This document shows positions 7,214-28,040 of a stretch of 64,000 nt of DNA, piece after piece; positions within the stretch are counted from its first letter, which is position 1; each line of letters opens with the position of its first letter. The stretch comes from Desulfatibacillum alkenivorans DSM 16219 (GTDB lineage: Bacteria > Desulfobacterota > Desulfobacteria > Desulfobacterales > Desulfatibacillaceae), in NCBI RefSeq assembly GCF_900142135.1, contig NZ_FQZU01000027.1, forward strand, positions 1 through 64,000, read 5' to 3'. The translations under genes and the position numbers were made by a program. The notes below the pieces were generated by a model. The model had not been told where the DNA came from, did not search any database, and worked only from the letters and a program-made list of their open reading frames with translations.

Positions 7214-7229
7214 TGGCACACCCCTTGCT
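7214..7229 (+). promoter_or_regulatory. Sigma-54 promoter for the TauE/two-component operon
   Basis: TGGCACACCCCTTGCT matches the -24 (TGGCAC) and -12 (TTGCT) elements, with GG (7215-7216) and GC (7227-7228) 10 nt apart. The TauE start codon follows 84 bp downstream. The operon itself may encode the activator (the sigma-54-dependent regulator at 11181), implying feedback control. Confidence 0.85.
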
Positions 7230-7312: not shown

Positions 7313-8476
7313 ATGTTTCACAAAACGCAAAAGACATGGATGGTTTTGTTGCTTGTCCTGATCTTGGCGGCGGTGCTGATTCCTGCGACGGGAATGGCGG
7401 CGTCCCTGGAGGAAGCTATCGCCCAGGCCCCCAAGGGCGCAGAAGCGGGACAGATCGACATGCAAGCCGAGCCTGGATTTCTTGGAATTCCCGGAGCTCC
7501 GGCCCCCAGCCTGGTGATCGGCTTTCTGTGGGCTATCTGGGTGGGCTGGATTTTCTCCACGGTGGGCGCTTTCGGCGGCATCATGGCGGGCGTGGGCCAC
7601 ATTACGGTGTTCGGCCTGGCCGATTACGGCAAGGGCTTTAAAAAGACCGCTCCGGCCCTTAACAAGCTGATCACGGACAGCATCCGCGTGTCCAACCAAT
7701 GGCTGGTGGGGTTGAGCGCCGCGGTTTCCAGCTTCAACTATTACAAGATGGGCCGTTTGGTGCTGCCTTTGGGCATCGCCCTGGCCATCGGCTCCGTGGC
7801 CGGCAGCGTGCTGGTGCCCTGGCTGACCGCAGGCAAGATCTCCCTGAAGGCCTACCTGGGCTACTTCGGCCTGATTGTCTTCGTCATCGGCGGGTTCCTG
7901 TTTTATGAAACCACCCCTCGCGGACAGTCCAAGAAAAAAGAAGCCAAGGCGGCGGCCGACGCGTTTGAAAAAAGCGCCATCAAGGGCGCTGAAAAATCCA
8001 TGGACGCCTCTGACATGGGCGTCCAGGTGAAAAGCTGGAGCGCCAAAAAGGTGGAGTTTACATTCTACGGCGTGGAATTCTCCTTCAACCCCATCGTTCC
8101 CATTATCGGCGGCTTCTGCATTGCGGGTCTGGCCTCCTTCCTGGGAATCGGCGGCGGCTTTTTGTTCGTGCCCTTCCTGACCTCCATCGCCGGCCTGCCC
8201 ATGTTCCTGGTCGCAGGAACTAGCGCCCTGACGGTGTTCGTTGGCATGGTTATCAGCATCTTCACCTACATGGTGGTTCAGGGCGTGACCATTTACTGGC
8301 CCCTCATCGGCGTGGAGCTGATCGGCATTTTCGTAGGTTCCATGATCGGCCCCCGGACCTCCAAATACATCCCGGACATCTGGCTGAAGCGCCTGTTTGT
8401 GGTCCTGGCCCTTTACGTGGGTCTGCGTTACACCACCAAGGGCTTCTTGGGATACAGCATTGTTCCTCCGTTCTGA
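7313..8476 (+). CDS. TauE/SafE-family membrane transporter (387 aa)
   Basis: A polytopic inner-membrane protein with an N-terminal hydrophobic segment (residues about 9-30), two blocks of transmembrane helices, and Gly-rich repeats such as STVGAFGGIMAGVGH and GLASFLGIGGGFLFVP. These repeats are characteristic of TauE/SafE sulfite or organosulfonate exporters. A lysine/alanine-rich soluble loop of about 55 residues (around 200-255) separates the two halves. ACGGAGGA stands just before the ATG. It is the first gene after a sigma-54 promoter and is followed by two small membrane proteins and a two-component system. Export of sulfite or a related anion fits the family; the substrate is not determinable here. 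Confidence 0.85.
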   Translation: MFHKTQKTWMVLLLVLILAAVLIPATGMAASLEEAIAQAPKGAEAGQIDMQAEPGFLGIPGAPAPSLVIGFLWAIWVGWIFSTVGAFGGIMAGVGHITVFGLADYGKGFKKTAPALNKLITDSIRVSNQWLVGLSAAVSSFNYYKMGRLVLPLGIALAIGSVAGSVLVPWLTAGKISLKAYLGYFGLIVFVIGGFLFYETTPRGQSKKKEAKAAADAFEKSAIKGAEKSMDASDMGVQVKSWSAKKVEFTFYGVEFSFNPIVPIIGGFCIAGLASFLGIGGGFLFVPFLTSIAGLPMFLVAGTSALTVFVGMVISIFTYMVVQGVTIYWPLIGVELIGIFVGSMIGPRTSKYIPDIWLKRLFVVLALYVGLRYTTKGFLGYSIVPPF

Positions 8477-9657: not shown

Positions 9658-11181
9658 ATGACCTTTCTCGTTCCATCCATGCCCGTGATCCTGATAGATT
9701 TTTTCGGGTCCATCGTCATGATCATTCTCAGTTTCATGTGTGTGGGCAAAGCCCAAAAACTTAGAGCCAGGGACGAACATAATATTGTCTGGACCTATCT
9801 TTTATGGCTTAGCTGGGGACTGGCGGTTTTCGCCGTATCCCGCTCCGGCGGACACATCATCAAACAATTACTGGTCATGTCCGGGCACACAGCCACGTGG
9901 GGGACATTGCGGCCGTACAGCGGCGCAATCAATACTTCCGTTTTTTTTGTCGCAGGCTCCGTGACCCTGTTTTTTGAGCGGGTTTTTCGAATCAATCGCC
10001 GTATTTTGGCCGATAAAGCCGAGCTTCAGGAATCCAAAGAGCAATTGTTGTACCTGAACCAGAACCTGGAAAACCTGGTCGCCGCCCGCACCCAGGCCTT
10101 GGCCTTGTCCGAGCATCGCTACCGCCGCATTTTTGAGGTTTCCAGAGACCTCATTCTGGTCACCAACCGAAACGGCGAGATCCTTGACTGCAATCCGGCC
10201 TCCAAAAAGGCTTTGAACTCCTTTGGAGACAATGACGCTGAGCATAAACCAAGCATTCAGCGCTCCTTTGACAACACCCGGCAATGGGACTCCATTCTCC
10301 AGGGCTTGGAGGAGAAAGGCTTTGTATTGAATGAAGAGGCGGTCCTGATGCGTCACGACGGCGCAACCATGCGGGTGCTCATTTCCGCCGGATTGGATCA
10401 GGGGGAGGACCAGACTCAGGACACCATCCATTTTCTGATCCGCGACATCGAGCAGAAAAAGCTCATGGAAGCCCGTATGGCGCAGGCCGACAAGCTGGCC
10501 TCCATCGGCGAACTTTCGTCAGGCATCGCCCATGAAATAAACAATCCCCTGGGAATCATCCTGGGCTACACCCAACTGCTTTTACGAAACGAAGATCCTG
10601 AAAACGAGCGCCACGCGGATTTGCGCATCATTGAAAAGCACGTCAAAAGCTGCAAGGTTATTGTGGAGGATCTGCTCAGCTTCGCCCGGGGCGGCGAAAC
10701 CATGAAAGAGCCGACGGACCTGCACGAAGTGATTGACGAAGTCCTGCAATTTTTGCATCATGAACCCGGGCGGCAGGACCTGGCCATCGCCAAGGAGTAC
10801 TCCCTGGACCTGCCCCTGGCCCACGTGGATAAAAAGAAAATCCGCCAGGTCATCATGAACCTGGTGATCAACGCCAGCCACGCCGTGGAAGGCCGGGGAA
10901 AAATCCTGCTGGCCACGGATTTCAACCCGGAAAAAGGGCTGGCGAGCATTTGGGTGAAGGACAACGGCCCGGGCATTCCCAAGCAAAACCTGGCCCGTAT
11001 TTTCGATCCGTTTTTCACCACCAAGCCCACCGGCCAGGGCACAGGGCTTGGATTGAGCGTATCGTACGGCATCATCAAAAGCCACGGCGGGGACATCAGC
11101 GTGGAAAGCGCCCCCGGAGAAGGGGCGGCCTTTCACATCACCCTGCCGGTGGAACCGCTGGAATCGGACATTGAGGATTAA
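9658..11181 (+). CDS. Membrane-bound PAS sensor histidine kinase (507 aa)
   Basis: Four hydrophobic segments in the first 110 residues are followed by a short coiled coil (about 115-150), a PAS domain (about 150-270), and a HisKA domain with the phosphorylated His at about residue 292 in SGIAHEINNPLG. The HATPase domain has an N-box (NLVINASHA), G1 (DNGPGIP) and G2 (GTGLGLSVSYGI). I start at the ATG at 9658, just after the preceding gene; an upstream in-frame start would overlap that gene by 76 bp. The stop overlaps the next ATG by one base. It should phosphorylate the NtrC-type regulator encoded next. Confidence 0.92.
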   Translation: MTFLVPSMPVILIDFFGSIVMIILSFMCVGKAQKLRARDEHNIVWTYLLWLSWGLAVFAVSRSGGHIIKQLLVMSGHTATWGTLRPYSGAINTSVFFVAGSVTLFFERVFRINRRILADKAELQESKEQLLYLNQNLENLVAARTQALALSEHRYRRIFEVSRDLILVTNRNGEILDCNPASKKALNSFGDNDAEHKPSIQRSFDNTRQWDSILQGLEEKGFVLNEEAVLMRHDGATMRVLISAGLDQGEDQTQDTIHFLIRDIEQKKLMEARMAQADKLASIGELSSGIAHEINNPLGIILGYTQLLLRNEDPENERHADLRIIEKHVKSCKVIVEDLLSFARGGETMKEPTDLHEVIDEVLQFLHHEPGRQDLAIAKEYSLDLPLAHVDKKKIRQVIMNLVINASHAVEGRGKILLATDFNPEKGLASIWVKDNGPGIPKQNLARIFDPFFTTKPTGQGTGLGLSVSYGIIKSHGGDISVESAPGEGAAFHITLPVEPLESDIED

Positions 11182-12572
11182 TGGAAAGACGCCTGCTCAT
11201 AGTGGATGACGAGCCCGACATGCTCCACCTGCTCAAACGCAGCCTTGAGCCGGACCTGAAATGCGCCGTGCAAACCGCCTCCTCCGGCCTGGAAGCCATG
11301 GAAATTCTGGGGCAGGAGCGGTTCGACCTCATTGTGGCGGACATAAAAATGCCCAAGATGGACGGCCTGGAGCTTTTGGAAAAGGTGCAGGCTCAATATC
11401 CGGACCAGACCATGGTCATGATGACCGGACACGGAAGCATCGACGTGGCCGTTCAGGCCATCCAAAAAGGCGCTTACGATTTTGTGACCAAACCCTTTGA
11501 TCACGAGGCCCTGGTGGTCCGCCTGGAAAAAGCCCTGGAACGCAGCAGACTGATCGCGGAAAACCGACGCCTCGTCCGCTGGTGCGGCCAGCAGCGCGCC
11601 TTTGAAAACATGGTGGGCCAAAGCCCGGCCATGCAAACGGTGTTCGACACCATCAAGACCGTCTCCCAGACCGACATGACCGTGCTCATCACCGGCGAGT
11701 CCGGCACGGGCAAGGAGCTGGCCGCCCGGGCTATCCATTCCCTCAGCCCCCGGTCCTCCGGCCCTTTTGTGGCCATTAACTGCCCCACGGTGCCGGAAAA
11801 CATCCTGGAAAGCGAGTTGTTCGGGTACAAAAAAGGCGCCTTCACCCACGCCTCGACCAGCCGTCAGGGTCTTTTTGAAGAAGCCAATGGCGGCACATTG
11901 TTCCTGGACGAAATCGGGGACGTGACGCCCTCCATCCAGACCAAGCTGCTGCGGGTTTTGCAGGAAAAGGAAATCAAGCCGTTGGGCTCCAACAAATCCC
12001 GTAAGGTGAACGTGCGCATTGTGGCCTCCACCAACCAGGATTTGCAAAAGCGCATTGACGAAGGCCTGTTCCGGGAGGATTTTTACTATCGCCTGGCCGT
12101 GGTGCCGGTGGTCATGCCGCCCTTGAGGGAGCGCAACGGAGACATTCCGCTCATCGCCGCCCATCTGGCGGCCAAGCATTGCAAGGATCTGGGCAAACTG
12201 CCTGTGACCTTGTCTCCGAACTTTGTAAGCTGGCTGGAAAATCAATCCTGGACGGGCAACGTGCGGGAGTTGGAAAACACCATCATCCAGGCCATTTTGT
12301 TTTCGGAAGAAGGAACGCTCGAGCCGCCCAAAACCGCGCCTGCTGCAACCCAGTCTCCATCCAGAATTTCCGTCCCCGACCTGTCCTCCCAATCCTACAA
12401 GGAAGCCAAGGAAAGCATCCTGGAGGCTTTTCACAGGAATTACCTGGGCGCCCTGCTCAAGGAAACCGGAGGCAACGTGACCCAGGCCGCCAGGAATTGC
12501 GGCATGGAGCGCCAGAATCTCCAGCAGATCCTCCGCCGCTACAACATCTCCGCCCAGGATTACCGGGATTAA
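11181..12572 (+). CDS. NtrC-family sigma-54-dependent response regulator (463 aa)
   Basis: The receiver domain (1-120) has the phosphoacceptor Asp54 in LIVADIKMP. The AAA+ domain has Walker A GESGTGKE and Walker B GGTLFLDEIGD. The C-terminus is a Fis-type helix-turn-helix (GGNVTQAARNCGMERQNLQQIL). The sigma-54-contacting loop reads GAFTHA (219-224) rather than GAFTGA, an unusual substitution at the fifth position. It is coupled to the kinase gene by a TAATG overlap. It may act on the two -24/-12 promoters at 6.8 and 7.2 kb. Confidence 0.93.
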   Translation: MERRLLIVDDEPDMLHLLKRSLEPDLKCAVQTASSGLEAMEILGQERFDLIVADIKMPKMDGLELLEKVQAQYPDQTMVMMTGHGSIDVAVQAIQKGAYDFVTKPFDHEALVVRLEKALERSRLIAENRRLVRWCGQQRAFENMVGQSPAMQTVFDTIKTVSQTDMTVLITGESGTGKELAARAIHSLSPRSSGPFVAINCPTVPENILESELFGYKKGAFTHASTSRQGLFEEANGGTLFLDEIGDVTPSIQTKLLRVLQEKEIKPLGSNKSRKVNVRIVASTNQDLQKRIDEGLFREDFYYRLAVVPVVMPPLRERNGDIPLIAAHLAAKHCKDLGKLPVTLSPNFVSWLENQSWTGNVRELENTIIQAILFSEEGTLEPPKTAPAATQSPSRISVPDLSSQSYKEAKESILEAFHRNYLGALLKETGGNVTQAARNCGMERQNLQQILRRYNISAQDYRD

Positions 12573-16567: not shown

Positions 16568-18133
16568 ATGAAAACCAACGACGATGAATTCTTCCGGGAA
16601 GCCGTGTCCAGAATTTGCGGGTCCGGCAATATTGAAAAAGCCCTCCAGGAATGCTTCTTCTTTTTAAAGAATTACATTCCCATGAACCAGGTGATCCTGA
16701 ACATCTTTGACAACACCACCAACATGGCCGAGGCAGTGGTCAGGGTTTCCGACGACGGCATTTTATTGGACTCCATCATCATTCCCTACACCCGGCAGGT
16801 GAAAAAGGACATGGAAGCCTATACCAGACGCTCCAAAAGGGTGTGGATGGTCCGAAGGCTGGGGGACTACGAAGGCACCAGGCACATCGCGGAGAAATCC
16901 GGCACGGCGGACTTTCCCGGAGTCATCATGGATTTGGACCTGGACGGCCGGATCATCGGCAAACTGACCATCATCCACAGCAAGGAAACCCGGTTCTCCC
17001 AAGAGCATTTGCGGCTTCTGGAAATTCTGAACACGCCCTTTGCCTTCGCCCTGTCCCATCACCTTAAACAGCGTGAAATCCGCAGGCTCAAGGACATCGT
17101 CGAAGACAACCAGATGTACTACCAGGAGGAATTGAACCAGATTTCCGGCGGATTCGTCATCGGCGCGGACTCCGGCCTCAAACCGGTCATGGAAATGGTC
17201 CGGCGGGTGGCCCACCAGGACAGCCCGGTCCTTTTGATCGGAGAAACCGGGGTGGGCAAGGAGGTCATCGCCAAGGCTTTGCACCGGATTTCCCCCCGGA
17301 GCGACAAACCGTTTATCGGCGTCAACTGCGGCGCCATCCCCGAATCCCTCATGGACAGCGAGCTTTTCGGCCACGAAAAAGGCGCCTTCACCGGCGCCGC
17401 GGTCCGGAAAAGAGGCCGGTTCGAACGGGCGGACGGGGGCTCCATCTTTCTGGACGAAGTGGGGGAGTTGAAAAAAGAGGCCCAGGTGCGGCTGTTGCGG
17501 GTGCTCCAGGAAAAGGAAATCGAACGGGTGGGAGGTACGGAAACCCTGTCCATGGACATCCGGGTCATCGCCGCAACCCACCGCAATCTGGAGGAAATGA
17601 TTCGGGACAAAATATTCCGGGAAGACCTCTATTTCCGCCTTAAGGTCTTCCCCATCTACATTCCGCCCCTCAGGGAAAGAATCCTGGACATCCCGGCCCT
17701 GGTATCCCATTTCATCCAGAAAAAATCCGTGGACATGAAGCTGGGCATACCCCCGTCCATCGCCCCGGGCCAGATAGACAAACTCATGGAATACCACTGG
17801 CCCGGCAACGTAAGGGAGCTGGAAAACGCCGTGGAACGGGCCCTTATCCTGTACAACGGGCAGCAGCTCCATTTTGACGGCCTGGAGGCCTCGGCCAGCG
17901 CCCCGCCGGCCAGCCCCCAGGAAGCCCCGGCGCCAGCCTCCCTGAACCTGGACGAAGCCATGGCCCGGCATATCACCCAGGCCTTAAAAAGCGCCCAGGG
18001 CAAAATCCACGGCCCGGGAGGCGCCGCCGAACTACTTGGGATCAACCCCATGACCCTCCGGCACCGCCTGAAAAAACTGGGCATTCCCTTTGGGCGCGCG
18101 GCCAGGGAGAACTACAGTCCTCCAAAGCCCTGA
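16568..18133 (+). CDS. Sigma-54-dependent transcriptional activator with GAF sensor domain (521 aa)
   Basis: A GAF-like N-terminal domain (about 15-165) replaces the receiver, as in FhlA/NorR-type activators. The AAA+ core has Walker A GETGVGKE, an intact GAFTGA loop, and Walker B GGSIFLDEVGEL. The C-terminal Fis-type HTH includes GGAAELLGINPMTLRHRLKKLG. With no phosphoacceptor domain, it probably senses a small molecule directly. The nearest strong -24/-12 promoter is at 21422, 3.3 kb downstream, in front of the SDR-ferredoxin/thiolase operon, which is its most likely target. ATG preceded by AAGGAATAACT. Confidence 0.93.
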   Translation: MKTNDDEFFREAVSRICGSGNIEKALQECFFFLKNYIPMNQVILNIFDNTTNMAEAVVRVSDDGILLDSIIIPYTRQVKKDMEAYTRRSKRVWMVRRLGDYEGTRHIAEKSGTADFPGVIMDLDLDGRIIGKLTIIHSKETRFSQEHLRLLEILNTPFAFALSHHLKQREIRRLKDIVEDNQMYYQEELNQISGGFVIGADSGLKPVMEMVRRVAHQDSPVLLIGETGVGKEVIAKALHRISPRSDKPFIGVNCGAIPESLMDSELFGHEKGAFTGAAVRKRGRFERADGGSIFLDEVGELKKEAQVRLLRVLQEKEIERVGGTETLSMDIRVIAATHRNLEEMIRDKIFREDLYFRLKVFPIYIPPLRERILDIPALVSHFIQKKSVDMKLGIPPSIAPGQIDKLMEYHWPGNVRELENAVERALILYNGQQLHFDGLEASASAPPASPQEAPAPASLNLDEAMARHITQALKSAQGKIHGPGGAAELLGINPMTLRHRLKKLGIPFGRAARENYSPPKP

Positions 18134-18783: not shown

Positions 18784-20223
18784 TCAAGTATTAATGGACG
18801 CAAGCTCCTTGGCGTAGCGTATCTGCTTGTCCAGGTCGTACGCCCTTCTCACCACAACCTGATTGGTGGCGGGAGACCCGGCCGCATTGATGGTAAACGC
18901 CATGATGGTCCCTGCGGCGCGGGACGCCGCCAGATCCTGGATCAAGTGCAAAGCCCGCAGCCTTTCTTCCGTGGTGTATTTAGGATTGCCCCGCAAAGCC
19001 TTGTCCATGTACTTTCTTAACTCCGGGTTGTTCCAGTCCGCCTCCGTGGGCATGGTGGCGATCAGGCCGCCTGCAATATCGTGCAAATGCTCCATGTGCC
19101 GGCCCACTTTCGAACGGATGGCGCCCAAGCCGGAGTTGGCGATCAAAGGATCCGGCATCCACACACCGCTGGGATGGCGCTTGGCGTTCACCGCCGCCCC
19201 CAGGGCGCACCCGTACCCGGCTTCTCCGTCCATAATCATGCCGGTTATTTTTTCCTGGATGTGGGAAGCCCGGCCGCTCACGCCGTTGACGTCCGCGGCC
19301 AAAGCCGCCGCCCCGGCGAACATGTCGCAATGGCCGGCGCTGCAAGCGCACTTGGACTGGCGATGGAGGCACGCAAAATACATGGAAAGGTTTGCGGCCT
19401 GCTCCCATTCCCCGCACATAAATAGGTTTTCCTCGGGCACAAACACATTGTCAAAAATGGTCATGGCCTCCACGCCCAAGAACCGTGAACTCAGGGGGCT
19501 TTCCATGGACGTCTCCCGGGAGGGCCCCGGCGAAGGCCTGGCGATCATCTTGACGCCCTTTGCATCAATGGGCAGGGCGAAGGACACGGCAAAATCCTTG
19601 TCCTCTTTTCCCAGGGCCCGGCAGGGCGCCACAACAACAAATCGGGTGCAGGGTCCCATGGTGGTATGGAGTTTGACTCCGTTCACCACAACTCCGCCGG
19701 GCTTTCTCTCCACGATTCTCAGGTCCGTGGGCTCCGGCTGCCGGGAAGGTGGCAGGCTGCGGTCGCCCTTGGGGTCCATCATGCACCATGCAAAAGGAAG
19801 CCCGGTTTTATGAATTTTGATGATAAAATCCCTGTACCGGCTTAGGTAGTCCGTACCGTGCGCCGCGTCCACGTCGTGAATCATGGCCCAGGTGACTGAG
19901 AGCATATTGGAGCCGCAAGCGGAGCAAATCCGCCTGGAACTGACTTCACGAGTCAACTCCGCCTTGATAAACAGGTCCTCCTTTTCCTGCTGGATGTGCA
20001 TGCCCAGCCGGGGAATATCCTCGCCGGATATGGGAGACCTGACCACCAGGCGGTCCTTTAGTTCTGGTTCGAACAGCAAATCGCACCCTGCCGCCAAATG
20101 GTGTACGGTCTGCCTAAGCAACGGGTGAGAGGCCACGTCCTCCACCCTTTCGCCCCGGATGTATATTTCGGGGGAAACTTCCTTAAAACTCTCGCGAAAC
20201 TGCTCGCCGGTAAGAATTGCCAT
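18784..20223 (-). CDS. 4-hydroxybutyryl-CoA dehydratase-like enzyme (HpaB/AbfD family, 479 aa)
   Basis: The protein belongs to the 4-hydroxyphenylacetate 3-hydroxylase (HpaB)/AbfD flavoprotein family. The family's dehydratases bind an unusual [4Fe-4S] cluster through Cys99, Cys103, His292 and Cys299 in the clostridial enzyme. Here Cys100, Cys103, His287 and Cys294 occupy matching places; the His-x6-Cys spacing is identical, while the first pair is CxxC instead of CxxxC. This supports an oxygen-sensitive dehydratase/isomerase rather than a flavin hydroxylase. GGAGG precedes the ATG by 5 nt. It is divergent from an HTH regulator gene. The substrate may be a 4-hydroxyacyl-CoA or a related compound, not necessarily 4-hydroxybutyryl-CoA. 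Confidence 0.85.
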   Translation of the reverse strand: MAILTGEQFRESFKEVSPEIYIRGERVEDVASHPLLRQTVHHLAAGCDLLFEPELKDRLVVRSPISGEDIPRLGMHIQQEKEDLFIKAELTREVSSRRICSACGSNMLSVTWAMIHDVDAAHGTDYLSRYRDFIIKIHKTGLPFAWCMMDPKGDRSLPPSRQPEPTDLRIVERKPGGVVVNGVKLHTTMGPCTRFVVVAPCRALGKEDKDFAVSFALPIDAKGVKMIARPSPGPSRETSMESPLSSRFLGVEAMTIFDNVFVPEENLFMCGEWEQAANLSMYFACLHRQSKCACSAGHCDMFAGAAALAADVNGVSGRASHIQEKITGMIMDGEAGYGCALGAAVNAKRHPSGVWMPDPLIANSGLGAIRSKVGRHMEHLHDIAGGLIATMPTEADWNNPELRKYMDKALRGNPKYTTEERLRALHLIQDLAASRAAGTIMAFTINAAGSPATNQVVVRRAYDLDKQIRYAKELASINT

Positions 20224-21421: not shown

Positions 21422-21437
21422 TGGCACGGCCCTTGCT
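21422..21437 (+). promoter_or_regulatory. Consensus sigma-54 promoter of the SDR-ferredoxin/thiolase operon
   Basis: TGGCACGGCCCTTGCT matches the -24/-12 consensus at every conserved position, with GG (21423-21424) and GC (21435-21436) 10 nt apart. It ends 38 bp before the chosen ATG at 21476. Confidence 0.9.
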
Positions 21438-21475
21438 CATTAGGAAGGACAAAACATCTCAAAGGAGGGGATCTC

Positions 21476-23239
21476 ATGGGGAAAACCGTCGCCATTACAG
21501 GCGTGAACAGCTATTTTGCCTCCACGCTCCTGCCGCAACTGCAAGCCGACCCTGACGTGGAAAAAATCGTCGGAATCGACGTCACACCCTGGAGGGGCGG
21601 ATTCAGCAAGGTGGAGTTCCATAGGGAGGATATCAGGAGCCAGGCCGTCGAGGACCTGTTCAAAGACGTGGATACGGTCTTTCACCTGGCTTTTGTGGTG
21701 AGCGAAATCCAGGACAAGAAAAAGACTTTTGACATCAATATTCAGGGCTCCAAAAACGTGTTCCAGGCCTGCGTGAAGAATCAGGTGCGCAAGGTGGTGT
21801 ACACCTCCAGCAACACGGTGTACGGGGCGTACAAGGAAATCCCGCTCAACGTGGACGAGGAGCAGCCGGTCTACCGCAACAAGGAGAGCTACTACAACCA
21901 GAGCAAGGTGGACGTGGAGGCCTTCGCCCTGGATTTTTTCAAGGGTCATCCTGACATGGTATTCACCATCATCCGGGCGGCGCTCTTATTCGGGCCGCAC
22001 ACCAACAACATGTTTACGGACGTTTACAAAAGCAAAGTCACGGCCATGCCCCTGGGCAGCGTCGCCCACATCCATTACATTCACGAAGACGACCTGGGCG
22101 AGGCCCTGCACTTGGCTTTCACCCACGACTTGCCGGGCATTTACAACGTGGGCGCGGACGACGCCGTGTCCTCCTACTGGACCTTCAGAAAGGCCGGTCT
22201 CAAGGTCGTGCCCCTGCCTTTGTTCATGCTGAAGCCCATCGCGGACGCAGCATTCAAGCTGCGCATGCTGCCCGCCAGCTCCGGTTGGCTGGTGATCGCC
22301 AGCAACACCATATTTTCCAGCAACGCAAAATTCAAAAACGCAACGGGATGGAAGCCCAAATACACCTCGCGGGAAACCTTTCTCAGCTACCTGAAAGCCA
22401 ACCAAAAAGTGAAGGAGGAAAAGCTCTCCCAGGCTTGGGTGGGCTTTTTATGGAAGCGAAATTACCTGCTGAAAGGCGCCATGGGGATTTTGAAAAATTC
22501 CATCCGCGCCACGAGCGTCCCGGGCATACGCAAAGTCATGCCTTGGATGGACGTGCAAAAAAACAGCTTCACCTACCTGCCTGTCAACGCAACCATGGAA
22601 GCCGCAAACGAGGTCATGCTGCCCCAGGTGGTCCACGATTATATTGATCAGGCCGACAACCTGATCATCATGACCAAGTGCGGATGCCGCTCCGCCCAAA
22701 ACTGCCAGCATCACACTCACGAGGTCGGCTGCCTGTTCATGGGCGATACCACCCTGGAATTCCCCAAGGGAATCAGCCGCAAAGCCACCAGAGAAGAGGC
22801 GCACGCCCACGTGGAAAAGGCCATATCCGCCGGTTTGGTCCCCATGGCCGGCAAGGTGCGCGTGGACAACGACATCTTTTTGGTCAAGGACCGGCAGAAA
22901 CTTCTGAGCGTGTGCTTTTGCTGCCATTGCTGCTGCATGATGACCTATTTCAAGCATATCCCGCCCGAACAGTTGGACCACGTCATGACGCCCGTGGAAG
23001 GCCTTTCCATGACGATTACGGACGACTGCAATGGCTGCGGCGCTTGCCTGGACACCTGCGGATTCGACGCCATCAAAATAGAAAACGGCAAGGCCGTCCA
23101 GACGGCCGCATGCCGCGGCTGCGGCCGCTGTGCGACCTATTGCCCCCTCGGCGCCGTGCACATTTCCTTGGACAATCCCAACGCCGTGGAAGACGTCAAA
23201 GCCCGGATTTCCCGTTACGTCAATGTCAAGTCCGCGTAA
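21476..23239 (+). CDS. SDR (NAD-dependent epimerase/3-beta-HSD type) fused to a Cys-rich ferredoxin module (587 aa)
   Basis: The N-terminal 330 or so residues are an extended short-chain dehydrogenase: a nucleotide-binding start (AITGVNSYFASTLLPQL, a degenerate GxxGxxG), VVYTSSNTVYG, and the catalytic-type YYNQSK. The C-terminal part carries CGCRSAQNCQHHTHEVGC from residue 402, CFCCHCCC (480-487), and two [4Fe-4S] ferredoxin motifs (CNGCGACLDTC and CRGCGRCATYC). This C-terminal part is homologous to the next gene. The start at 21476 follows AAAGGAGGGG; an in-frame ATG at 21404 lies upstream of the sigma-54 promoter and can be excluded for that transcript. A dehydrogenase delivering electrons to an attached iron-sulfur wire is inferred. 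The fusion is not one I recognise. Confidence 0.85.
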   Translation: MGKTVAITGVNSYFASTLLPQLQADPDVEKIVGIDVTPWRGGFSKVEFHREDIRSQAVEDLFKDVDTVFHLAFVVSEIQDKKKTFDINIQGSKNVFQACVKNQVRKVVYTSSNTVYGAYKEIPLNVDEEQPVYRNKESYYNQSKVDVEAFALDFFKGHPDMVFTIIRAALLFGPHTNNMFTDVYKSKVTAMPLGSVAHIHYIHEDDLGEALHLAFTHDLPGIYNVGADDAVSSYWTFRKAGLKVVPLPLFMLKPIADAAFKLRMLPASSGWLVIASNTIFSSNAKFKNATGWKPKYTSRETFLSYLKANQKVKEEKLSQAWVGFLWKRNYLLKGAMGILKNSIRATSVPGIRKVMPWMDVQKNSFTYLPVNATMEAANEVMLPQVVHDYIDQADNLIIMTKCGCRSAQNCQHHTHEVGCLFMGDTTLEFPKGISRKATREEAHAHVEKAISAGLVPMAGKVRVDNDIFLVKDRQKLLSVCFCCHCCCMMTYFKHIPPEQLDHVMTPVEGLSMTITDDCNGCGACLDTCGFDAIKIENGKAVQTAACRGCGRCATYCPLGAVHISLDNPNAVEDVKARISRYVNVKSA

Positions 23240-23284
23240 CGGATTCAGGCCGACTTGCCAATATTCAGGCCACATGGATTTTTC

Positions 23285-23355
23285 GGGGCACGATCCTTAT
23301 CTCAAAGGACATACCTGGAACGTGCATTGACAATGCAGAGATAAGGTCATGTCTC
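23285..23355. repeat. Dispersed palindromic repeat, family 1, copy C
   Basis: Left end GGGGCACGATCCTTATCTC (23285-23303); right end GAGATAAGGTCATGTCTC (23338-23355). The centre contains GCATTG-A-CAATGC. It sits between two genes of the same operon, in the opposite orientation to copies B, D and E. Its ATG at 23349 creates a false upstream start for the next gene. Confidence 0.85.
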
Positions 23356-23396
23356 AAAAATCCTCAACCCCGCCCCAGCGAAACGGAGGAGTCGCC

Positions 23397-24305
23397 ATGG
23401 AACCCTATATGTTCAAGCACAAGAAAAAAGGCCTTGGCATACACAACTGGATCAAGTCCAAAACCGCCATAAAGCCCGGGGAAAAGGGCATTTCCCAGGC
23501 CATTGTGTTCTTTAAGGCCGTAATCGCCGGAGGCAGGCTGACCCATTATCCCGTCCTTAGCTACCTGTACGAAAAAGCGATGTTCCTGCGCCCTTCCCGT
23601 AAGAAATTCACCAGCGGCGTGGCCCTGAACCTGAACGTGGATATCGCCGAAAATTCCAAGAATACCGCCATGCCCATCGAGTTGATCAAAAAGGCCGTGT
23701 CCGAAACCGCATACATCGCAATCATGCACCGCTGTTTTTGCCGATCCGCCCAGAACTGCAGCGACCATCCCCAGGATCTTGGCTGCATATTCATAGGAGA
23801 AGGCTCCAGGGCGGTGGTGGAAAAAGGCATCGCCCGAAAAGCCACCGTGGAGGAGGCCATGGAGCACATCGACCGGGCCGTTAAATCCGGCCTGGTGGGG
23901 CAATCCCTCTGGATCGAGGCCGAGCAATATCTCTGGGGCATCAAAGATGAAGACATGCACCGCTTTTTGGAGGTCTGCTTTTGCTGCCCCTGCTGCTGCA
24001 CGGCCCTCAAATTGGCGAAAAACTCCCGGGACGATTTGCGGGACCGATTCCGCTCCATCGGCTGGAAAGCCGTGGTGGACGAAAACTCCCCAAAGGAGTG
24101 CGGCCGTTGCCAGGTGTGCACGACGGCGTGCCCTCTGGAAGCCGTAAGCAACACAAACGGCCGGGCCGAAATCCGGGAGGACCGGTGCATGGGATGCGGC
24201 ATCTGCGCGGTCCAATGCCCCAACGACAAAATCCGCCTGCATGTCATGACGCCGCCCAAGGGGGATCTTAAGGATTACTTCTGGCAGCTTGACCTGGACC
24301 TTTAA
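23397..24305 (+). CDS. Cys-rich iron-sulfur protein, stand-alone paralogue of the fused module (302 aa)
   Basis: The protein repeats the C-terminal half of the preceding SDR fusion. It has CFCRSAQNCSDHPQDLGC from residue 113, CFCCPCCC (194-201), then CGRCQVCTTACP and CMGCGICAVQCP ferredoxin motifs. The spacing between the first two motifs (about 80 residues) is the same as in the fusion (78). The N-terminal 110 residues contain a basic, hydrophobic region without Cys. CGGAGGA lies 6 nt before the ATG at 23397, which I prefer to the in-frame ATG inside repeat copy C. It probably forms an electron-transfer pair or heteromer with the fusion protein. No named family comes to mind. Confidence 0.85.
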   Translation: MEPYMFKHKKKGLGIHNWIKSKTAIKPGEKGISQAIVFFKAVIAGGRLTHYPVLSYLYEKAMFLRPSRKKFTSGVALNLNVDIAENSKNTAMPIELIKKAVSETAYIAIMHRCFCRSAQNCSDHPQDLGCIFIGEGSRAVVEKGIARKATVEEAMEHIDRAVKSGLVGQSLWIEAEQYLWGIKDEDMHRFLEVCFCCPCCCTALKLAKNSRDDLRDRFRSIGWKAVVDENSPKECGRCQVCTTACPLEAVSNTNGRAEIREDRCMGCGICAVQCPNDKIRLHVMTPPKGDLKDYFWQLDLDL

Positions 24306-24368
24306 ACCATGAATCCGAAGTTCAACTCATAACAATAAAATATCAATGTAACTCAAGGAGCAATCAGC

Positions 24369-25595
24369 ATGAGAGAAGCCGCCATAGTCGGGGCCGGCAT
24401 GACGCCCTTCGGCAGACACCCGGAAAAAGGCATCAAGGACCTGGTTCGGGGCGCCGTGGAACTGGCCCTGGAAGACGCGGGCGTGGAGCCTGGAATATTG
24501 GAAGCCGCCTACGTGGGATCGGCCGCCCCCGGCCTCATGACCGGCCAGGAGCAGATCAAGGCCCAGGTTACGTTAAGCGCCATGGGGATCGACTCCATAC
24601 CCATGTACAACGTGGAAAACGCCTGCGCCAGTTCGTCTTCCGCCCTGAACCTGGCCTGGACCGCCGTCAGCGCCGGAATATTCGACTGCGTTCTGGCCGT
24701 GGGATTCGAAAAGCTCTACGACGAAAACCGGCTCAAGTCCTACATGGCCTTGGGAACCGCCATGGATATTGAAATGGGCCAGAAATACATGGAGGATTTT
24801 CAGGAGAAGCTGGGTCTGACGGACAAGGTTTTTTCAGACGAAGCGGGCGCGAAAAAAAGCGTGTTCATGGACATGTACGCCTTTTATACCCGGCGTTACA
24901 TGGAGCAGTACGGGCTGACCCAGGAGCATTTCGCCAAGATCGCGGTCAAATCACACAAGAACGGCGCGCTCAATCCCAACGCCCATTATCGCAAGGAGGT
25001 CACCCTGGATCAGGTGCTGAACTCCGGCGACGTGTCCTTTCCCCTGACCCGCATGATGTGCTCGCCCGTGTCTGACGGTTCGGCCGCGGTCATCGTGTGC
25101 AGCAAGGAGAAAGCCGCCCAAATCGCAAAAAAGCCCGTTTGGATCGAAGCCTCGGTCCTTGGCAGCGGCAAGCTGGGATATGACATGGACGACACTCTGA
25201 CCCGGCGGGTGGGTTTGAAAGCCTTCAAAGCCGCCGGCATCACGCCCCAGGACGTGGACGTGATCGAAATCCACGACGCCACGTCGCCGTCGGAAATCAT
25301 CGCGCTCATCGAATTGGGCGTCTGCCCGCCCCACGAAGCCCCCAAATGGATCGACGAGGGCTACATGGAGTTGGACGGCAAAATGCCCGTCAACACATCA
25401 GGCGGCCTGGCATCCAAGGGCCATCCCATCGGCGCCACGGGCCTGGCCCAGGTATACGAGGTGGTCAATCAACTGCGGGGAACCGCCGGAGAGCGCCAGG
25501 CGCAAAACAACCCAAAAATCGGAATGACCCAAAACGGCGGCGGAATTCTTGGGATAGACGGCGCCGCCATGGCTTTTCATATTTTAAAATCTTAA
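24369..25595 (+). CDS. Thiolase, SCP-x/acetyl-CoA acetyltransferase type (408 aa)
   Basis: Thiolase landmarks are all present: the nucleophilic Cys in NVENACASSSSALN, the second catalytic region EIHDATSPSEI, and GGLASKGHPIGATG with the active-site His. The length and the EIHDA motif place it in the SCP-x-like clade, which often handles branched or sterol/cyclic side-chain acyl-CoAs. AAGGAG precedes the ATG. It lies 63 bp after the iron-sulfur protein and 16 bp before the CoA ligase, within the same likely operon. Confidence 0.9.
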   Translation: MREAAIVGAGMTPFGRHPEKGIKDLVRGAVELALEDAGVEPGILEAAYVGSAAPGLMTGQEQIKAQVTLSAMGIDSIPMYNVENACASSSSALNLAWTAVSAGIFDCVLAVGFEKLYDENRLKSYMALGTAMDIEMGQKYMEDFQEKLGLTDKVFSDEAGAKKSVFMDMYAFYTRRYMEQYGLTQEHFAKIAVKSHKNGALNPNAHYRKEVTLDQVLNSGDVSFPLTRMMCSPVSDGSAAVIVCSKEKAAQIAKKPVWIEASVLGSGKLGYDMDDTLTRRVGLKAFKAAGITPQDVDVIEIHDATSPSEIIALIELGVCPPHEAPKWIDEGYMELDGKMPVNTSGGLASKGHPIGATGLAQVYEVVNQLRGTAGERQAQNNPKIGMTQNGGGILGIDGAAMAFHILKS

Positions 25596-25611
25596 ATATG
25601 GGGGTGCAAAT

Positions 25612-26982
25612 ATGGAACTTGGAGATCTGAATCGCGAATATTGGAACATGGACATCGAGACCAAGCTGAACACGCCTGAAATCAAGGAATTGCAGCTTGA
25701 AAAGCTCAAAAAGGCGCTCAAGTGGCAATACGAAAACACGCCGTTTAACCGGAAGCGCTTTGACAAGGCGGGCGTCAAGCCCGAGGACATTCAATCCTTT
25801 GAGGATTACGCCCAGGCCATTCCCGTGGCTGGTCAGGCGGATCTGCGGGAAATAATCCAGGAAGTGGGCCTGGACATGGACGCGCTCATGCGGGAGTTGT
25901 TCGGCCCGTCCCGCATGGACGACCTGTATTTGATCACCACCACCTCCGGCACCACGGGCATTCCCACGCCCTACCCTAATTTCCACGCGGGAATAAGGGA
26001 GATGAAGGAGCTTTTCCACAGGGTGGCATGGCGCATGGGCATGCGCCCCGGAGACCGGGTCGGCCTGTGCTTCGGCCTGTCCATGCACGCCGCGGGCACG
26101 CCCCAGATTTTATGGTTCCAGGATTTCCCCGGCATCACCATCGTACCCATCGGGGCCGAGGCCGGCACGGAGAAAATCCTCCAGTTCCTGAAGCTGTTCA
26201 AGGCCAACATCTTCACGGGAACGCCTTCCCTGGCCCTGCACCTGATCGAAAAATGCCCCGAGGTTCTGGGCCATCCGGTGAAGGATCTGGGCATCAAACT
26301 CATGATGCTGGGGGCAGAGCCGGGCGCAGGCATTCCGGAAGTCCGGCAAAAGCTGGAATCGGAATACGGCGCCAAGGTCTATGACGGCGGCGGCGGATAC
26401 GGGTGCTCCTGCGACTACCCCATTTACCAGGGCATGCACTGGCTGGCCGATGACTTGTGCTACTATGAGTTGCTGGATCCCAAAACAGGGGCTTCCGTGC
26501 CCATGGAAAACGGCGCCACGGGCCTCATGGCGGCCACGTCTCTCAATCCCGCAGGCGCGGTGTGGTTTGACATGCGTTTCACCCTGAACGACATCCACCA
26601 GGTCTTCACCGATCCCTGCCCCTGCGGCAAAACCGGATTCCGGTATAAAATCGTAGGCCGGGCGGACGACATGCTTAAGGTCAAGGGCGTGCCAGTGTAT
26701 CCGGCTTCCATTGAGGGCGTCATCCATTCCTTCCCCCAAGAGTTGACCGGCGCGTTCCGCATTGTCCTGGATGAGCCGCCCCCCAGGGTCGTTCCGCCGC
26801 TTAAGCTGAAAATCGAGTATACGGAAAACGTGCGCGAGGAAGAGCTTCCCTACCTGGAGGAAAAGGTCAGGGCCAAGATGAAATCCCTGCTTAAAGTCAA
26901 TCCCGCCATCATGTGGCTGCAGCCCAACACCCTGGAAAGAGCGGTGAAGAAGACCCAGGTTTTGGAAAAAACCTACGAATAG
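25612..26982 (+). CDS. Phenylacetate-CoA ligase-like AMP-forming acyl-CoA ligase (456 aa)
   Basis: Adenylate-forming enzyme motifs are TTTSGTTGIPTPY (P-loop-like), YDGGGGYGCSCD, and GRADDMLKVKGVPVYPASIE (hinge region) as in PaaK. Its length matches the compact PaaK family. CPCG near residue 343 and extra cysteines (YGCSCD) are also typical of that branch. It would activate a carboxylic acid to its CoA thioester with ATP, feeding the thiolase and dehydratase. The aromatic or aliphatic nature of the acid is not clear. Confidence 0.88.
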   Translation: MELGDLNREYWNMDIETKLNTPEIKELQLEKLKKALKWQYENTPFNRKRFDKAGVKPEDIQSFEDYAQAIPVAGQADLREIIQEVGLDMDALMRELFGPSRMDDLYLITTTSGTTGIPTPYPNFHAGIREMKELFHRVAWRMGMRPGDRVGLCFGLSMHAAGTPQILWFQDFPGITIVPIGAEAGTEKILQFLKLFKANIFTGTPSLALHLIEKCPEVLGHPVKDLGIKLMMLGAEPGAGIPEVRQKLESEYGAKVYDGGGGYGCSCDYPIYQGMHWLADDLCYYELLDPKTGASVPMENGATGLMAATSLNPAGAVWFDMRFTLNDIHQVFTDPCPCGKTGFRYKIVGRADDMLKVKGVPVYPASIEGVIHSFPQELTGAFRIVLDEPPPRVVPPLKLKIEYTENVREEELPYLEEKVRAKMKSLLKVNPAIMWLQPNTLERAVKKTQVLEKTYE

Positions 26983-26996
26983 GGAGGACCGAAACC

Positions 26997-28040
26997 ATGT
27001 TGGAGAAGCACAAACACATCAGTTTTCCGCCCAAGACCGATTTTCCGGTTTTTCAGGTGGACGATGAAAAATGCATCGGCTGCGGGCGTTGCGTCAATTC
27101 CTGTCCGATCCAGCTATTGATGCTGAACAGCGACAAAAAAGCCCGGCCCAACGAACGCTACGATCACTTCCGGTGCATCTGCTGCCAGAACTGCGCGGCC
27201 TCCTGCCCCAATGACGCCATCACCATCCAGGGGGATTACCGGGTGCGCGAGGGTTTTTGGAAGAACGACAACCTGTTCGAGGGAGGCAAGACCTTTCCCG
27301 ATCCCTTGTATTTTCGCAACGGCGCCAAGTATGAGGACTATGAAGATCAACTGACGGAAACGGAAAAGGTCATCTACAACCGCCGCAGCATCCGCTTATA
27401 CAAGAAAAAAAAGGTGCCCAAGGAACTGGTGCACCGGGTCATCGAAGCGGGCAGGTTCGCGCCGTCGGCGGGAAATAACCAGCCCTGGAAGTTCGTGGCC
27501 ATCACCAACCCGGACGTCATCGAGGAGATCGACCAGATCTGCAAAAAACGGGTGAAGCTATTCCCCCAAATGCTTATGCCCCGCCCTTGGGTGGATAAGC
27601 AGGTTCCGGGGGACAAAAACGCCAAGCCCAAAAAATGGCAGAAAACCCTCCACTACCTGCTCTCCCGCAAAACTCCGGGAGACGTGGATCAACGGGTCCT
27701 GGGCGGCATCAACACCATTTCGAGCGATCCCGAGTATCGGACCTTTTTCCGGGCGCCCGCCCTCATCATCCTGGCAAAGGACGTCAGGGGCATCGGCTCT
27801 CCGGACCTGGACCTGGGCATCTGCGGCCAAAACATGGTCCTGGCGGCCCATTCTCTGGGCCTGGGAACCTGCTGGGTCAGCCTCATCAAAGGGCTTACCT
27901 GGGACCATGGTTATGTTCGGAAGGTTTTAGGGCTGGAATACCCGTTCAAAATCCTGACCTCATTGACCCTGGGATATCCCGCAGGCCAGGTGGACAACAT
28001 TGTTGCCAGGGAAAGGCAGCGGGTGAATTGGATCGAGTAG
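26997..28040 (+). CDS. Nitroreductase-family flavoprotein with N-terminal 2[4Fe-4S] ferredoxin domain (347 aa)
   Basis: Residues 26-37 (CIGCGRCVNSCP) and 60-71 (CICCQNCAASCP) are two ferredoxin motifs. From about residue 120 a nitroreductase fold follows, with NRRSIRLYKKKKVP (FMN phosphate contacts), GRFAPSAGNNQPWKF, and LAAHSLGLGTCWVS. GGGAGG stands 8 nt before the ATG at 26997, which is preferred over an earlier in-frame start lying inside the ligase gene. Such fusions are common in anaerobes and pass ferredoxin electrons to a flavin. It may reduce an enoyl or aromatic intermediate of the pathway. Confidence 0.87.
   Translation: MLEKHKHISFPPKTDFPVFQVDDEKCIGCGRCVNSCPIQLLMLNSDKKARPNERYDHFRCICCQNCAASCPNDAITIQGDYRVREGFWKNDNLFEGGKTFPDPLYFRNGAKYEDYEDQLTETEKVIYNRRSIRLYKKKKVPKELVHRVIEAGRFAPSAGNNQPWKFVAITNPDVIEEIDQICKKRVKLFPQMLMPRPWVDKQVPGDKNAKPKKWQKTLHYLLSRKTPGDVDQRVLGGINTISSDPEYRTFFRAPALIILAKDVRGIGSPDLDLGICGQNMVLAAHSLGLGTCWVSLIKGLTWDHGYVRKVLGLEYPFKILTSLTLGYPAGQVDNIVARERQRVNWIE

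Follow-up and report, generated by a model that had tools for sequence, protein, structure and literature searches.

The operon described here lies in a stretch of 64,000 nucleotides of Desulfatibacillum alkenivorans DSM 16219, which is referred to below as the window. The features of the locus are the following:

16568..18133, + strand: sigma-54-dependent activator (enhancer-binding protein; Pfam Sigma54_activat, 3.2e-69)
21422..21437, + strand: sigma-54 (-24/-12) promoter, TGGCACGGCCCTTGCT, an exact match, 39 bp before the ATG of the fusion
21476..23239, + strand: SDR/Fe-S fusion, 587 aa (translation; Pfam Epimerase, 9.6e-26, plus Fer4; orthologues)
21476..22435, + strand: extended-SDR domain, about aa 1-320 of the fusion (alignment of fused and split relatives; motif positions)
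22679..22936, + strand: undescribed ten-Cys module, C402-C487 of the fusion (six-Cys set 402, 404, 419, 480, 482, 487; four-Cys set 410, 483, 485, 486)
23027..23143, + strand: the two [4Fe-4S] ferredoxin motifs of the fusion, C518-C556 (Pfam Fer4, 2.2e-08)
23397..24305, + strand: stand-alone Fe-S protein, 302 aa (ten-Cys module plus two [4Fe-4S] motifs)
24369..25595, + strand: thiolase of the acetoacetyl-CoA/SCP2-thiolase group (catalytic Cys and GHP His present)
25612..26982, + strand: PaaK-type acyl-CoA ligase (closest solved structure 2-hydroxyisobutyryl-CoA synthetase)
26997..28040, + strand: ferredoxin-nitroreductase fusion, two [4Fe-4S] motifs plus nitroreductase domain (Nitroreductase, 3.2e-33; conserved in the cassette)

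The five genes of the operon are separated by 157, 63, 16 and 14 bp, and Shine-Dalgarno-like sequences are present. A reading made from the sequence only had placed a consensus -24/-12 promoter at the head of this operon, which in its account encodes the SDR/Fe-S fusion, a separate protein repeating the Cys-rich module, an SCP-x-like thiolase, a CoA ligase of PaaK-like type and a fusion of ferredoxin and nitroreductase; the genes and their motifs are where it put them, and the box is exact. The number of sigma-54 boxes with at most one mismatch in the 64-kb window (3 for 1.7 expected) is not beyond chance. In the sister species (Desulfatibacillum, locus L011:6108), an exact box was found at the equivalent position, all five genes follow in identical order with 80-88% identity, and an orthologue of the window's activator (81-82% identity) lies close to that operon. 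Since the exact box, the same genes and the activator orthologue are all kept there, so that the -24/-12 box and the activator expected of a sigma-54-dependent operon are found in both species, control by sigma-54 is well supported within the genus Desulfatibacillum, and the activator encoded at 16568-18133 is probably the regulator of the operon. Elsewhere in the window, a TauE/SafE-type transporter gene (7394-8476) is preceded by a second exact box (7214-7229); a gene pair for a histidine kinase and a sigma-54 response regulator (9679-12572) is close by.

A frameshift, an assembly error or a sequencing error was considered as the source of the fusion and rejected, since full-length relatives (47-82% identity) exist in other genomes from five family-level groups. 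The N-terminal domain scores 91.1 bits against PF01370 (Epimerase; cut-off 20.9), as expected of a Rossmann-type extended SDR. Its catalytic residues (SS at 111-112 and Y140NQSK) are conserved in the alignment of fused and split relatives, and it keeps an NAD-type GID motif with the acidic residue. The TGxxGxxG nucleotide motif is replaced by TGVNSYFA in the window fusion and is degenerate (TGxNSYxA) throughout the fused/split clade where the alignment covers it; use of NAD is therefore not certain. This degeneracy, together with a top Pfam match to Epimerase and solved relatives that are mainly sugar epimerases, would suit an epimerase, dehydratase or decarboxylase with tightly held NAD, the Fe-S module then serving a separate reductive step. 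Such an assignment seems rather improbable to us: sugar epimerases fit poorly beside a thiolase and an acyl-CoA ligase, and oxidoreductases of the same superfamily (3-beta-HSD type and OleD type) match the domain too.

The module spans ~90 residues ahead of the ferredoxin motifs and reads C402xC404R-x4-C410-x8-C419, then C480xC482C483xC485C486C487; the pattern common to the fusion and the 302-aa protein is CxCR-x4-C-x8-C ... CxCCxCCC, with ten Cys. No meaningful match to a Pfam or NCBIfam family was obtained for 58 members scanned minus their ferredoxin part, and a profile search of PDB sequences gave no credible solved relatives of the module; PDB matches to designed pentatricopeptide proteins were set aside as chance, resulting from a short helical stretch that is repeated many times. 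Structure models predicted for the 302-aa protein (mean pLDDT 78.9) and for the isolated module (76.3) gave no fold match in the PDB at E 0.001 with Foldseek (best E for the isolated module, 2.6). It is likely that the module is a new fold, likely and not proven because the models were made without metals and are only moderately confident. A literature search, with subscription journals mostly outside its coverage, turned up nothing relevant on the motif or the gene set. Judged by these comparisons, the ten-Cys module is a large undescribed family, without counterpart in Pfam, NCBIfam or the PDB; the earlier suspicion that the Cys-rich region does not belong to a described family was thus borne out by profiles as well as by structure prediction.

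The in-depth search covered a genome collection of this phylum, and in a wide genome scan with exact peptides the sister species was the sole match. The D. alkenivorans genome holds 24 complete copies of the module plus one fragment, genome G130 (8.9 Mb) has 69 matches, and of 297 genomes sampled evenly across the phylum, 158 gave at least one match. In G130, about seven copies follow one another in tandem within 7 kb (L192 = G130:C246:70500-82000). A full-architecture member is also encoded on a plasmid of Cetobacterium somerae (Fusobacteriota), annotated '4Fe-4S binding protein', which is the only annotation of the module wherever a record was seen. With this copy number and with about half of the phylum's sampled genomes concerned, the module marks a considerable gap in what is known of anaerobic redox biology. 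The family falls into two main groups, a short one (~280 aa, including the window copies) and a longer one (mostly 340-440 aa), and the N-terminal parts of some long members give weak winged-helix matches (TrmB, HTH_Crp). Several other arrangements were seen: long-type proteins directly adjoin hypB/hypA (nickel insertion) in several genomes including this one (L175:4302-6401; L019:7128-9321); an 868-aa protein of G135 (L180:5017-7623) is an AMP-binding acyl-CoA ligase fused to the Fe-S module; and a 697-aa open frame of G086 (L203:1364-3454, - strand) joins an alanine-racemase-type domain to it. Modules of this type directly adjoin other SDRs as well, in G021 and G346, and the association of module and enzyme thus extends beyond the SDR fusion of the window.

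The ten cysteines do not behave as one set. Across 155 distinct modules, there is hardly any variation at six of them (402, 404, 419, 480, 482 and 487 in the numbering of the fusion), the few exceptions being one serine, one shift by a residue and one row that is truncated, whereas the other four (410, 483, 485 and 486) were lost jointly in at least three lineages. The losses of Cys 410 (7) and of Cys 483 (8) include 6 joint ones (p about 1e-8 when relatedness is ignored), and on a tree built without those columns their loss corresponds to about 4 changes. Because the four are lost together while the six stay, the simplest reading is a module with two distinct metal sites, of which one can be lost; its four ligands would be as many as a [4Fe-4S] cluster needs. 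A much wider proposal would make of the module a new fold in which the six-Cys site, present in every member, binds a non-standard (e.g. double-cubane or non-cubane) Fe-S cluster next to an optional four-Cys [4Fe-4S] site, the whole acting as a modular low-potential relay for an entire phylum of anaerobes that could be joined freely to dehydrogenases, to CoA ligases and to enzymes of other kinds; we regard this as speculative and improbable. The 6+4 grouping is a prediction open to site-directed mutants and to Mossbauer or EPR spectroscopy.

Dispensability of the four-Cys set in some lineages is also what could be expected if the module were not an electron relay but a redox or metal sensor or a regulatory (or maturation) domain, which in the fusion would switch the SDR off or on with the redox state of the cell. 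Many family members indeed have an N-terminal part, with the winged-helix resemblance mentioned above in some, and members are found beside TetR/MarR-type genes (partly judged from sequence starts) or beside hypA/hypB. However, the clade of the fusion has no winged-helix-like part, retains both ferredoxin motifs and has metabolic enzymes as neighbours, and for this copy we hold a sensor function to be unlikely, albeit worth keeping in mind. An electron relay is not the sole possible role of the family, since other paralogues of the module stand in unrelated gene contexts (neighbours partly judged from sequence starts).

The 302-aa protein had been taken as the stand-alone paralogue of the fusion. 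All of its 18 Cys fall in a pattern matching the module and ferredoxin motifs of the fusion, with the same spacing, but the relationship is distant: the two are only 31% identical and belong to separate clades of the family tree. A recent duplication was rejected as its origin for these reasons, and the true split counterpart of the fusion is encoded in the same genome on a different contig (L015). The operon of the sister species contains an 80% orthologue of the 302-aa protein, whose clade includes a paralogue (45% identity) on contig C8 that adjoins a paralogue (51%) of the sigma-54 activator. The fused modules, from six loci, group with the split modules that follow a separate SDR gene, from four loci, in a single clade (support 96/98) made up of a split subclade (100/99) and a fused subclade (94/93), from which it follows that the partnership between SDR and module predates the fusion state. 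In G005 and G363, a second module gene lies directly downstream of the fusion, yet it comes from another clade than that of the 302-aa protein.

Thiolase, ligase and SDR/Fe-S genes (fused or split) occur together at 12 loci in 10 genomes from four family-level groups: the window, G000:C34, G001 (twice), G003 (counted though its contig ends inside the SDR gene), G006, G008, G514 and G363, and three loci from outside the order (G102, G066 and G579); one of the cassette-bearing groups (f63) belongs to another order. Genes at neighbouring loci were called with a simple codon-score script; their functions come from BLAST comparison with proteins of the window or, for selected genes, from Pfam, and some were judged from sequence starts only. 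The ferredoxin-nitroreductase is present at 9/9 cassette loci where the contig does not break off on that side. It also occurs at four ligase/thiolase loci with no SDR/Fe-S nearby (G560, G346, G007 and G005); G346 and G560 have ligase, thiolase and nitroreductase and lack the close SDR/Fe-S pair, which counts against the catabolic reading favoured below. Seven relatives with the SDR/Fe-S pair, all from f1, are the very seven f1 genomes with the ligase at >=72% identity; these co-occurrences come from one family and are not independent observations. Upstream of the other cassettes no sigma-54 box was detected, apart from a single site with two mismatches at a related G050 locus, and the box-less cassettes that were examined have a MerR/TetR-type regulator instead (two identified by Pfam, others from sequence starts). 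Double-domain regulators of the MerR/TetR type were seen upstream of box-less cassettes at L146:5422-6315 and L015:2624-3544. In L143 (2897-6991), L144 and L142, genes for two acyl-CoA dehydrogenases and for a ~500-aa protein come after that for the cassette ligase; the scanned copy of the ~500-aa protein (L143) has no Pfam match.

Adjoining the operon on the opposite strand is an HpaB-family (AbfD-like) gene (18784-20223) that is missing there in the sister species. This gene and an HTH gene were tried as members of the cassette and rejected, since they are not beside the sister operon, where L011 has another gene. Thus, of the neighbourhood proposed by the sequence-only reading, the association of thiolase and ligase with SDR/Fe-S stood, and the AbfD-like gene dropped out. 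That reading had named two outcomes as telling against it, a match of the Cys-rich module to a characterised family and the lack of a conserved association with CoA genes; neither was observed.

The thiolase retains the nucleophilic Cys and the GHP His, as in enzymes of the SCP2/acetoacetyl-CoA type. The ligase (P0003) matches PaaK (129.5 bits) and 2-hydroxyisobutyryl-CoA synthetase (149.5 bits) along its length and has a Pfam AMP-binding_C_2 match; it scores 159 bits against the NCBIfam PaaK model TIGR02155, for a cut-off of 646, and is PaaK-like only. Its closest solved relative hints at a small branched or hydroxy acid as substrate; a cyclic or branched one is a guess. The ligase pointed to the acetone/2-hydroxyisobutyryl-CoA pathway of Desulfococcus biacutus, which was rejected, the operon having no mutase or ThDP enzyme; a word search of the acetone paper (PMC7888143) gave no ferredoxin, iron-sulfur protein or thiolase. 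A biosynthetic rather than catabolic cassette would be analogous to OleA/OleC/OleD, which are thiolase-fold, AMP-forming and SDR enzymes. The parallel lies in the combination of a thiolase, an AMP-forming enzyme and a 3-beta-HSD-like SDR that matches OleD models weakly; it is very unlikely to hold, given that the ligase is of the PaaK type, the thiolase is of the acetoacetyl-CoA/SCP2 group, an OleB-like gene is absent from the operon and two acyl-CoA dehydrogenases are added in some relatives.

We tentatively favour, with somewhat less than even confidence, a catabolic cassette under sigma-54 control that serves to break down an acid in the form of its CoA thioester, in which an SDR with a new Fe-S relay probably works with the ferredoxin-nitroreductase. 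The anatomy of the locus, the conserved gene association, the intact catalytic residues of SDR and thiolase and the near-invariance and 6+4 grouping of the module Cys were observed here, and we infer the order of reactions, the substrate, the cluster types and the direction of electron flow. The scheme is as follows: (i) the ligase would activate the acid to a CoA thioester, (ii) the SDR domain would oxidise a hydroxyl to a ketone, most likely with NAD and on a 3-hydroxyacyl-CoA, (iii) the thiolase would then cleave the product, (iv) the C-terminal Fe-S relay of the SDR, consisting of the ten-Cys module and the two-cluster ferredoxin, would probably exchange electrons with the ferredoxin-nitroreductase, whose flavin may convert hydride (two-electron) into single-electron steps and (v) the 302-aa protein may be a second electron carrier. 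SDRs work by hydride transfer, and a [4Fe-4S] cluster carries one electron at a time. As the SDR is a hydride-transferring enzyme and no flavin domain is recognisable in the fusion, the switch from two electrons to one was placed in the nitroreductase, the only obvious flavoprotein of the operon.

The sequence-only reading had instead wired SDR oxidation directly to the unusual cluster, or invoked bifurcation, and a dehydrogenase physically fused to many predicted clusters does invite that idea. SDR hydride chemistry feeds [4Fe-4S] clusters only via a flavin or similar mediator, a general requirement that counts against it, and with Pfam no flavin site or domain was found in the SDR or ferredoxin part of the fusion or in the 302-aa protein. 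The proposal is therefore highly doubtful. The nitroreductase is a member of a family of flavoproteins for which bifurcation is not known. For one copy of the module, the SDR fusion with its conserved CoA cassette provides a defined set of partners, so that its cofactor and its electron partner become testable.

HdrB-type non-cubane clusters and double-cubane [8Fe-9S] proteins are unusual multi-Cys Fe-S sites; the ten-Cys module matches them neither in sequence nor in fold, and its Cys spacing is unlike theirs. Common to the Fe-S region and 2[4Fe-4S] ferredoxins (e.g. PorD, RnfB, FrhG) is the C-terminal CxxCxxCxxxC pair, but the likeness stops at the ferredoxin motifs and the module itself matches nothing. 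The SDR domain has in common with the extended SDR superfamily (PF01370; 3Beta_HSD, PF01073; OleD, NF042422) the fold as judged by sequence, the Ser-Tyr-Lys residues and the NAD-type acidic residue, and differs in its degenerate glycine motif and its C-terminal Fe-S extension; its match to the best solved chain is weak (48.6 bits). The thiolase shares the catalytic Cys and the GHP His with acetoacetyl-CoA thiolase (6esq), SCP2-thiolase and BbsB, but has Ala where the first two have the Cys of 'HDC', and no DUF35 partner was noticed beside its gene. In comparison with PaaK and 2-hydroxyisobutyryl-CoA synthetase, the ligase forms a clade of its own (>=72% identity) that is tied to the cassette.
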